A stretch of 64,000 nt of DNA from Polaromonas sp. (GTDB lineage Bacteria > Pseudomonadota > Gammaproteobacteria > Burkholderiales > Burkholderiaceae_C). A model generated the notes under the pieces. That model did not search any database, was not told the origin of the DNA, and saw only the letters and a list, made by a program, of their open reading frames with translations. How positions within the stretch are numbered: the stretch's first letter is position 1; every line of letters starts with the position of its first letter. The position numbers were made by a program, and so were the translations under genes. Positions 18,947 to 61,279 of the stretch are shown in pieces. The stretch is from the NCBI RefSeq assembly GCF_016185115.1, contig NZ_JACPOF010000017.1, forward strand, positions 186,001 through 250,000, written 5' to 3'.

Positions 18947-19680
18947 GCTTTTTTACCCGCAATATCCAGCAGGTCCTGCGCCGTCAGCCAGCGCCAGCCG
19001 CCAGGCTTGAGGTCCCCGGGCAGCTGCAGATCGCCAATACGCGAGCGGTGCAGGCCGGCCACTTCTTCAACCCGGTTGCCCACAGCGGCAATCATGCGTT
19101 TGACCTGGTGGTACTTGCCTTCGGTCAGCGTCAGGCTAAGGGTGTTGTCACCGGTTTTTTCGCAGGCGGCCGCCTTGACGGGTTTGGGGTCATCATCCAG
19201 CACCACGCCCGACAACAGCTTTTGCACCTGCTTGTCGTCTACCGGGTGTTTGGCGCGCACTTCGTACACCTTGGGCACATGGTGTTTGGGCGAGCTCATG
19301 CGGTGGATGAATTTGCCGTCGTCCGACAGCAGCAGCAGGCCTGTGGTGTCCTGGTCCAGCCGCCCGACCGCCTGCACACCGGCAGCCGCACCGCCGCCGC
19401 GCTGGCGAATCGGCGCGGGCAGCAGTGTGTAGATGCTGGGATAGGTGCTGGGCTTTTGCGAGCATTCATAGCCCGCAGGTTTGTGCAGCATGAGGTAGGC
19501 CTTCTCGTGGTATTCCCACGGGGTGCCCTGCACAACGAACTGGAGGCCGGTGGCTTCAAGCTCTTCGGTTGGGTCGTCTATCGTTTTGCCATCAACGGCC
19601 ACATGGCCCTGCTGAACCAGACCTGCGCAGACACGACGTGTGCCAAAGCCCTGTGAAAAGAGAATGTCCTGAAGTTGCAT
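18943..19680 (-). CDS. RsuA/RluB/E/F-family rRNA pseudouridine synthase
   Basis: This 245-residue enzyme has an S4-like N-terminal RNA-binding region (QDILFSQGFGTRRVCAGLVQQGHVAVDGK). Its catalytic domain contains AVGRLDQDTTGLLLLSDDG, where Asp109 is the nucleophile, and TLTEGKYHQVKRMIAAVGNRV. It isomerises a uridine in 16S or 23S rRNA, and the exact target cannot be told. Two ATG codons lie in tandem at 19678-19683. The frame stays open upstream, but those codons belong to a 238-bp inverted-repeat element. The element's end touches the start codon and supplies the weak AGGA ribosome site. Confidence 0.92.
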   Translation of the reverse strand: MQLQDILFSQGFGTRRVCAGLVQQGHVAVDGKTIDDPTEELEATGLQFVVQGTPWEYHEKAYLMLHKPAGYECSQKPSTYPSIYTLLPAPIRQRGGGAAAGVQAVGRLDQDTTGLLLLSDDGKFIHRMSSPKHHVPKVYEVRAKHPVDDKQVQKLLSGVVLDDDPKPVKAAACEKTGDNTLSLTLTEGKYHQVKRMIAAVGNRVEEVAGLHRSRIGDLQLPGDLKPGGWRWLTAQDLLDIAGKKA

Positions 19681-19681
19681 C

Positions 19682-19919
19682 ATCCTAGAAACCGCAGTTG
19701 AATGCATCGGAGGGCACCGCGCTTGGGGTGCCAGGCAAGGCGCGAGGACGCAGCGCACCCTTGTGCGCAAGGACGAGTAACACAGCATGGCGCAGCGAGC
19801 ACTGTGCCTTCGGGTGCATAGCGCTCTTGCGCACGAGTTGAACTCCATCGGCGCAGAAAAACTCAATGAACATTCGGCGCTCCAAAGGTAAACGAGCGGT
19901 CAACTGCGGTTTCTAGGAT
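19682..19919. repeat. 238-bp element with perfect 20-bp terminal inverted repeats (MITE-like)
   Basis: ATCCTAGAAACCGCAGTTGA at 19682-19701 is repeated exactly, inverted, at 19900-19919. Inside are further dyads, such as CTTGTGCGCAAGG near 19770 and the partly matching CTCTTGCGCACGAG near 19830. No protein of credible type is encoded. Size, ends and internal folding resemble non-autonomous mobile repeats. The left end overlaps the ATG of the pseudouridine synthase gene. Confidence 0.88.
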
Positions 19920-19980
19920 CATGGCCATGCCGGTATTGTCGCCGGGCAGCTACCCCCTGCCGTGAGGGCCCACGCCGTTC

Positions 19981-24092: not shown

Positions 24093-24782
24093 GGGGCTTG
24101 TTTTGCAGTGTTCGGGGGAAATGCTGATTATCAGCGTAGCAACATGAGTCGCTTTCGTCACCCCTACGTGATCCGGGATCGATCCCTGTTTCGCGTTGAG
24201 GTGTGCCCTTCACGACCAGGCCGGGTCTCGCCCCGGCGGGCGAGGCACTTTTCTTTGCTTCGCCAAAGAACAAGTACCCAAAAGAAAGGCGACCCGACGT
24301 CTGGGTCCCTTCGGGCAACCTGCGCTGCTCGACTCCGGCGGCAGTCCAAACAACTCGCCTGCGGCTCAGACAAGTTTGGCCTGACCTTCCGCCTCCGTCT
24401 GCGCTGCTCGGCCCAGCCTCCACGGGGTTGGGGATGATTGCGGGATCGGATGCGGGGAGCCCAAAGCGCGAAGCGCTTTGGGCGAGTCTTCGGACTGCGT
24501 CCCCAAAACCCTTGGAGAGGAGCCGAGAAGCGCAGGGCCAGACGGATCAGGGCTGAAACTTGTTTGAGCCGCAGGCGAGTTGTTTCAGACCCCGGCTGGA
24601 ACGAGCATCGCAGGGTGCCCCGAAGCGAAGCGTAGGGGACGACGAACAGGGTCGCCTTTTCTTTTGGTTACTTTGCTTTTGGCGAAGCAAAAGAAAAGTG
24701 ACTTGCCGCCGGGCAACCCCCGGCTTCTGCGTGAAGGGCACAACGCTCGCCCCGTATGACAGCCGGGACCCTATCCAACTCT
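24093..24782. other. Gene-free region (690 bp) dominated by a giant palindrome
   Basis: Between the FkbM gene and the LytTR regulator gene I find no believable coding region. The short open frames here are artefacts of the symmetrical repeat. Nearly all of it is the 541-bp element at 24202-24742. The remaining flanks (24093-24201 and 24743-24782) show no clear promoter. Confidence 0.8.
24202..24742. repeat. 541-bp giant imperfect palindrome with a perfect central hairpin
   Basis: TGTGCCCTTCACG at 24202-24214 is mirrored by its reverse complement at 24730-24742. The arms stay recognisably complementary inward: the CTTTTCTTTGCTTCGCCAAAG region at about 24248-24268 pairs with about 24676-24695. 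AACAACTCGCCTGCGGCTCA near 24350 pairs with its mirror near 24576. The centre is GCCCAAAGCGC-GAA-GCGCTTTGGGC (24459-24483), a perfect 11-bp stem at the exact midpoint. Confidence 0.92.
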
Positions 24783-47950: not shown

Positions 47951-48021
47951 AAATTGCTATGCTTTCAGTAGCTAGCCACGTACGTATTCATTGGCCTACA
48001 GCCTGATTTGGCACCTCAAAA
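47951..48021 (+). repeat. CACGTRCGTATT-type dispersed repeat (family B, copy 3)
   Basis: Contains GCTTTCAGTAGCTAGCCACG, TACGTATTCATTGGCCTACA and GCCTGATTTGGCACCTCAAA. This is the best preserved copy, and it pairs with the inverted copy at 48214-48282. Confidence 0.82.
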
Positions 48022-48089
48022 TGGCCTGAAAAGCATTTTTTTGGCCGCCAAAGCCCCACGCGAACCAACTTTCAAGGCACTTGGGCCTG

Positions 48090-48153
48090 TTTTTAATGTT
48101 TACGTTAAATTATTGCCGTATACATTAAATTTTTAATGTATACGACAAAAACT
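48090..48153. repeat. AACGT-type palindromes between opposed family B repeats
   Basis: Three motif copies can be seen: TTTTTAATGTTTACGTTAAA, GTATACATTAAA and TTTTTAATGTATACGACAAA. They follow the YTAAYGTNNACRTTAA pattern also found at 20115-20159. The run is much more AT-rich than its surroundings. Confidence 0.65.
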
Positions 48154-48213
48154 ACCAAGTGGCTGTTTTAACGCCCTGCAAACATCGCCAAAACAAGCCA
48201 GAAAACGCGTATT

Positions 48214-48282
48214 TCCGGTATCAAATTGGCATCCAGCCCAATGAATACGTACGTATGCAGCTACTGATTTAATAGCAAAATC
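48214..48282 (-). repeat. CACGTRCGTATT-type dispersed repeat, inverted (family B, copy 4)
   Basis: Read on the minus strand it gives TTGCTATTAAATCAGTAGCT, then ACGTACGTATTCATTGGGCT and GCCAATTTGATACCGGAAA. It touches the queF stop codon and may serve as part of its 3' end. Confidence 0.8.
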
Positions 48283-52640: not shown

Positions 52641-53035
52641 GGGTGAAAGCCCTGAAAAAAAGAGCCGGTTTTTGGCCTCAGCCTATTGCGGAGATTTTGA
52701 AACAGGCGCATTCTCTAGGGCCTGTCATCCTGTAAATCGCCTCCGCGTGGCCGCCGGAAAGGATTGCAATCTAGGCGCGAAACGAAGCCGGGGTAATCCC
52801 CGGTGAGGCTTCGCAACAACGAGTGCTGTCCTTTCCGGGTGCCACCCGCAGGGCTGGGGCTGCAAGGAATGCCCCGCGTCGTTGCAGCCCTTGACCGGGG
52901 ATTACCCCGGCCTGCGGTCTGCGCCTAGCGCTGCACCCCTTGCAGCCCCAGCGCGGAGGCGATTTACAGGATGGCAGGCCCTAGTTACGTGATTTGACGC
53001 CATCCCGCGCCGGACACGGCTTCATGGAGTCCACC
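52641..53035. other. Gene-free region with a 270-bp palindrome (395 bp)
   Basis: The region between the VOC gene and the degenerate trypsin-like gene holds the palindromic element 52715-52984. The flanks, about 75 and 51 bp, show no clear terminator. The last flank carries the GGAG ribosome site of the downstream gene. Confidence 0.8.
52715..52984. repeat. 270-bp imperfect palindrome with CTAGGGCCTG ends
   Basis: The first 31 bases, from CTAGGGCCTGTCATCCTG through AAATCGCCTCCGCG, are mirrored with one mismatch by 52954-52984. Inner arms also pair loosely: CCGGGGTAATCCCCGG near 52788-52803 and GGGGATTACCCCGG near 52899. The centre contains a small CGGGT-GCC-ACCCG hairpin at 52836-52848. No protein is encoded. 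Confidence 0.88.
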
Positions 53036-61194: not shown

Positions 61195-61279
61195 GCCCGG
61201 GTGGTGAAATTGGTAGACGCAGGGGACTCAAAATCCCCCGCCGCAAGGCGTGCCGGTTCGATTCCGGCCCCGGGCACCA
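61195..61279 (+). tRNA. tRNA-Leu (anticodon CAA)
   Basis: An 85-base cloverleaf includes an encoded CCA end. The acceptor stem GCCCGGG pairs with CCCGGGC. The anticodon stem GGGGA/TCCCC encloses loop CTCAAAA with anticodon CAA (reads TTG). The long variable arm CGCCGCAAGGCG marks a class II Leu tRNA, and GGTTCGATTCC is the T arm. A CATAAT hexamer about 21-26 bp upstream may be its -10 box. Confidence 0.97.

Follow-up and report, generated by a model that had tools for sequence, protein, structure and literature searches.

A non-coding 270-bp palindrome in a Polaromonas genome as a probable stranded mini-transposon with two inverted copies of a conserved folded module

The window, the whole 64-kb stretch of DNA analysed here (positions 186001–250000 of contig C20 in a Polaromonas genome of 4.81 Mb), contains a 270-bp palindrome at 52715–52984. 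Sequence, inverted repeat, fold and genomic copies together delimit it as C-TA-[264-bp element]-TA-G, and it runs C-TA-GGGCC...GGCCC-TA-G through an outer stem, a left arm, a CCCGCAGGG mini-hairpin, a right arm and the outer stem again. Positions 52715–52747 pair with 52952–52984, forming 33-bp arms with one mismatch that can be read directly in the sequence and that bear out the mirrored ends described in the original prediction. The terminal inverted repeats that make up the outer stem, as given by the inverted-repeat list, lie at 52718–52747 on the forward strand and 52952–52981 on the reverse strand. In the predicted fold they enclose a left hairpin arm (52748–52844, forward) and a right hairpin arm (52854–52951, reverse), where pairing is looser than in the ends, with the small hairpin near the centre at 52845–52853; both of these features had also been anticipated. 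Each hairpin arm holds one copy of an ~82-nt module, M, and the two copies are mutually inverted. A covariance model (R1) places the left copy at 52756–52836 on the forward strand (80.8 bits) and the right copy at 52862–52943 on the reverse strand (89.5 bits, a score that is not independent because this copy belongs to the R1 training set).

Folded as DNA, the palindrome reaches −105.1 kcal/mol, compared with −56.1 ± 3.8 kcal/mol in 200 dinucleotide shuffles, none of which matches its stability (0/200; z = −13). The inverted repeat that spans the whole element (I1) tops the list for the window, which covers repeats up to 1 kb apart. A single ORF of at least 60 aa enters the palindrome, a 68-aa frame running from 52600 whose start lies outside the element. 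The palindrome is therefore short, without coding capacity and bounded by a 33-bp terminal inverted repeat, as is characteristic of MITEs. At gathering score it is unmatched in Rfam, where the sole match from the window is a tRNA at 61195–61276, and a search of 11 loci with E up to 5 returned two matches, both at chance level.

The palindrome is also dispersed in several copies, a further MITE property. The host genome carries three full copies, that in the window included, and one half copy, so that the absence of other copies, named in advance as counting against such an element, is not what is found. The two other full copies are 93–94% identical to the window copy. R1 detects 61 copies of M in this genome, and the elements delimited around them fall into at least seven families whose ends are unrelated. 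Families A to D carry two copies of M per element and end in TAGGGCCTGTCATCC (family A, which contains the window palindrome), TAGGGCCTGTTCACACTATTTTCAGGAG (family B), AGAGCCTGTTTATGAACTGTAGGGG (family C) and AGAACTTGTCCGTGAGTAATTTGG (family D). One copy of M is present in families E (~165 bp), F (~105 bp) and G (238–246 bp). The family A copies examined are located between genes or at gene ends. Family F copies (L092, L093, L096, L097, L103, L104, L106, L110, L112, L118 and L119) directly follow stop codons and are flanked mainly by tandem genes; in about 9 of the 11, M runs antisense to the gene before the element.

The window contains other long palindromes. That at 24202–24742 (541 bp) had been proposed to have the same architecture as the 270-bp palindrome, a proposal that does not hold: a scan of the window with filters off finds no M within 24202–24742, and the two palindromes are therefore of different kinds. 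The genuine second member in the window is instead a 246-bp palindrome on the forward strand at 19678–19923, assigned to family G from its inverted repeat (I10), family delimitation and R1, with a single M at 19721–19800. This palindrome has ATCCTAGAAACCGCAGTTGA ends, and there are further family G copies in the genome. The 541-bp palindrome is characterised by GCTTCGCCAAAGAACAAGTACCCAAAAGAAAGGCGACCC-type repeats. A third long palindrome, 325 bp at 47954–48278, has 67-nt arms that are 72% complementary, TAGCTAGCCACGTACGTATTCATTGG-type ends, an AT-rich centre and no M.

Evidence for mobility comes from sister elements. Copy A2 of family A adjoins the end of a conserved gene and reads GCC-TA[element]TA-ATTTGA, where three genomes of the same genus have GCC-TG-GTTTGA; the element has one TA on each side, set against three uninterrupted relatives. 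The comparison of empty sites that had been suggested for the palindrome thus yields an empty site and a target duplication for this sister copy, and no comparable empty site for the window copy among the 30 genomes searched. Uninterrupted sites in relatives were also found for copies B3, B7 and C3, which lie at gene ends beside stop codons that use the TA. Target duplications are imperfect or absent in families C, D and F. In another genome of this order, G238, which is complete at 5.47 Mb, there are at least 20 end pairs at two-M spacing, and the seven elements retrieved from it are 272 bp long, 98.5–100% identical and bounded by TA on both sides, with unrelated flanks beyond. Near-identical elements in unrelated flanks indicate recent movement. 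By comparison with the A2 empty sites and these recent copies, we infer that the left TA (52716–52717) and right TA (52982–52983) of the window palindrome are the two copies of a target duplication.

The G238 genome also contains the probable source of this mobility. An 859-bp element bounded by the ends of the two-M elements occurs there in about 12 copies, and eight of these that were compared show 0–2 base differences. Two overlapping ORFs of the 859-bp element match PF13340 (DUF4096, IS4/5 transposase) and PF01609, and both match NF033580, the IS5 family. The MITE and this insertion sequence (IS) are identical over 21/21 bp at one end and near-identical at the other, and have nothing else of note in common; M is absent from the 859-bp IS. 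These observations argue that the MITE has an unrelated core and is not a shortened IS, and that M is dispensable for IS5 transposition. Compared with the IS5 family (DUF4096 + DDE_Tnp_1), whose G238 member and its two-M MITE have common 21-bp ends and TA duplication, the window element differs in that it encodes nothing and its interior is not common to the IS. By analogy, the outer ~20 bp of the left terminal inverted repeat are presumed to be the transposase site.

A partner transposase of the IS5 family was found for the G238 sister family only. In the window genome PF13340 (DUF4096) has no match at all, the family A end pattern matches MITE copies and no autonomous IS, and no recognisable transposase was seen by eye between neighbouring copies on C18, C11 and C16. 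Family B ends searched in 300 genomes of the order bound no longer element, and no autonomous partner of the TAGTACTCTTTCAAGG family was found in G654, G669 and G769, where many copies lie at contig ends. The IS5 link is thus drawn from one sister family: neither the ends of families A and B nor the second family searched, TAGTACTCTTTCAAGG, yielded a partner. The window element is probably IS5-mobilised, by extension from the shared ends in G238. Within-family identity is 81–96% in the window genome, compared with ~100% in G238. Given these diverged copies and a genome without a DUF4096-type transposase, the window element looks like a stranded remnant, provided that it is not mobilised by a different type of transposase. 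The original prediction of an active class of non-coding palindromes is accordingly sustained in part: a repeated class with multiple families exists, and its activity in this genome is unsupported, because copies within a family differ by 4–19% and the search for a DUF4096 (PF13340) transposase gene found none.

Several known systems resemble the palindrome in part. The enterobacterial repetitive intergenic consensus (ERIC) inserts at TA. ERIC elements are non-coding, palindromic, intergenic and strongly folded, and are treated as MITEs (PMC10969869, PMC3733652). The window palindrome has the first four of these features in common with ERIC (127 bp) but differs, as judged by description, in length, sequence and two-arm plan; no M was found within described ERIC, and Rfam gave no match. 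TA duplication and a link to the IS5 family are known for Correia/NEMIS elements. These elements of Neisseria are MITEs with terminal repeats that act near genes and for which RNase III processing is reported (PMC10969869). They are like the window palindrome in being bacterial MITEs with terminal repeats and are set apart, again by description, by their ends (here TAGGGCCTGTCATCC), size and interior; they are reported in Neisseria, and not described as a structured family that spans a phylum and carries M. We do not claim membership of the window palindrome in ERIC or Correia. Integron attC sites have R'/R'' core sites and occur in clustered cassettes, whereas copies of the window family are dispersed. 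The intergenic, MITE-like R0 and R2 repeats of Pseudomonas fluorescens SBW25, whose inverted repeats match two insertion sequences (PMC2718517), can be likened to the window palindrome by description but measure 89 and 110 bp rather than 270 bp. The GTAG/CGTC REPs and REPINs are short palindromes of intergenic regions that frequently occur as inverted pairs; REPs are 20–40 bp long, with tetranucleotide tags and stems of 6–13 bp (8–9 bp in CGTC REPs) (PMC3733652). They have neither long terminal repeats of such a type nor TA duplication, and the loops of CGTC REPs differ from those here. A CGTC/GTAG REP identity is ruled out by the 270-bp length, the 82-nt modules and the long terminal inverted repeats. 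In P. glacialis, a one-M element (L031, 1388–1642) is flanked by a pair of CGTCATTCCCGCGAAGGCGGGAATCC-type repeats in inverted orientation that look like a split REP pair of the CGTC type.

Matches to M extend across the Pseudomonadota, occurring in 176/399 genomes of the order (87/159 genera), 93/369 genomes of the class (75/272 genera) and 70/399 genomes of the phylum; these counts are lower bounds, as scoring was limited to a few top candidates in each genome. Two-M elements follow a single plan of ~268 bp, in which an outer stem encloses two M arms in inverted orientation and a CCC-NNN-GGG centre, and 58 of 65 such elements measured are 264–273 bp long. A central CC(C)-loop-GG hairpin, the counterpart of the CCCGCAGGG mini-hairpin, is present in 49/49 two-arm elements inspected, with CCC-TNC-GGG or its complement CCC-GNA-GGG prevailing. 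Both would be favourable loops, of the UNCG kind in RNA and of the C(GNA)G kind in DNA. A search of viral contigs with one strict M pattern had no match, and so revealed no phage link, and plasmids gave a single distant match, in Comamonas odontotermitis; the record of this replicon, the sole annotated record read, has no feature at the element site. Many draft contigs in G654 and G525 end inside two-M elements, which indicates that these repeats fragment assemblies and that their copy numbers in these two genomes are underestimated. At L214 (G098), both family B ends are fused end to end over ~45 bp and the interior is missing, which may reflect deletion from a two-M element.

The paired structure of M appears to be under selection. 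In a first set of 20 sequences, collected by BLAST and a simple motif without a structure model, 20 of 25 predicted pairs show two-sided changes. With 117 sequences, in an alignment that was fitted to the model and whose rows are related, standard pairs fill 95.4% of pair cells, two-sided changes occur in 23/25 pairs and the covariation score is 0.882, compared with 0.197 for shuffles and at most 0.134 for slid controls. Against this caution, the 117 sequences show a very strong effect, and no model was used to build the first alignment. The sequence of the long stem is not fixed. The near-invariant bases lie in or beside an asymmetric internal loop, C-W-A-G-G-C-G-C facing G-C-A-A-C-R-M-M-G, and comprise C followed by A-G-G-C-G-C on one side, faced by G-C-A-A-C and, further along, a G.

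Mismatches in the stems of M are strongly asymmetric. On the M strand, G.T outnumbers A.C by 127 to 4, a ratio that may be inflated because the alignment was gathered with a model allowing G-U pairs, and by 75 to 4 after two T-G-rich columns are dropped. In 45 partner arms found by geometry, a smaller set in which G.T and A.C were scored alike, the counts are 31 and 6. The outer stem, an internal control, has 37 G.T and 46 A.C. All of these counts come from related sequences and are not independent events. Constraint on a double-stranded palindrome or cruciform would make G.T as frequent as A.C on one strand; the comparison suggests that one strand of M is kept foldable alone, as it seems from the sequences, either as RNA or as single-stranded DNA. 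The G.T excess could alternatively stem from a strand-biased mutation process. An mRNA-only role was rejected on gene orientation in single-M elements: the M strand is mainly sense to the preceding gene in P. glacialis elements and mainly antisense in family F, which is G.T-biased nonetheless (49 G.T, 10 A.C), and read-through mRNA alone therefore does not account for the choice of strand.

The reading that we favour, with a probability of roughly three in four, is that the palindrome is a gene-less, stranded MITE at a TA site, spread by an IS5-family transposase acting in trans, in which M is selected as a folded strand. An IS5-family DDE transposase would recognise the outer ~20 bp and insert the element at TA (here CTAG), duplicating the TA. 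Between the element ends, two inverted 82-nt copies of M are joined by the CCC-NNN-GGG mini-hairpin, each apparently kept by selection on its one-strand fold and asymmetric internal loop. Inverted doubling gives one M per DNA strand, so that either strand, single-stranded or transcribed, presents one correctly folded M. The folded strand, as RNA or as single-stranded DNA at replication forks, may be bound by a putative host or transposon protein that aids spread or persistence of the element. The broader proposal, a phylum-wide mini-transposon superfamily with varied IS5-type ends and M as a conserved cargo recognised by protein when folded as single-stranded DNA or RNA, its inverted pair serving either strand, is put forward tentatively, at a little under even odds.

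A protein-bound single-stranded DNA hairpin and a structured RNA are our leading guesses for M. It is possible, though we would not wager on it, that M is a structured RNA, folding in read-through transcripts so that protein or RNase binding would change the stability or termination of the mRNA; with similar tentativeness, such an effect could be made independent of insertion direction by the inverted pair. One-strand tolerance of G-U, the many two-sided changes, the UNCG-like central loop on one strand and the position of elements directly after stop codons are consistent with an RNA, but the mainly antisense M of family F still prefers G.T, Rfam has no match and G.T is the better tolerated mismatch in DNA as well. 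Likewise a candidate of less than even probability is a single-stranded DNA hairpin that replication exposes; a transposase or a DNA-binding protein of the host would recognise it and so favour copying or insertion of the element. This reading fits a strand bias that is independent of gene direction, the central loop that reads C(GNA)G on one strand and the presence of one M per strand, such that one always lies on the lagging-strand template; against it, the IS5 partner moves without M, DDE transposases act on double-stranded ends, and no Y1 or other single-strand transposase was noticed alongside M.

A passive palindrome, in which an ordinary MITE keeps its pairing through gene conversion, or through template switches from one arm to the other, and no functional selection is involved, is improbable: copying with a strand switch is able to regenerate perfect palindromes and produce double changes, but the invariant bases at unpaired internal-loop positions, the strand asymmetry limited to M and the constant plan across the phylum are left unexplained. 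Chance or one ancient duplication without mobility is refuted by the multiple copies, the empty sites and the near-identical recent copies in G238, and we give it almost no credence.

What is new in the mini-transposon reading is the structured core common to the elements. The Polaromonas JS666 genome paper reportedly describes MITEs. A literature search of incomplete coverage, with that paper outside it, found no published description of the M superfamily, which is apparently undescribed. Bacterial MITEs are mostly viewed as decayed insertion sequences, and the interior of these elements does not derive from an IS. A single architecture is held across a phylum though nearly all of its sequence changes, and strong compensatory change together with strand bias suggests that a folded single strand within a mobile element is under selection. 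M elements account for many intergenic palindromes, and the R1 model detects them in many genomes, which makes it a testable question what binds M and whether the transposon or the host benefits.
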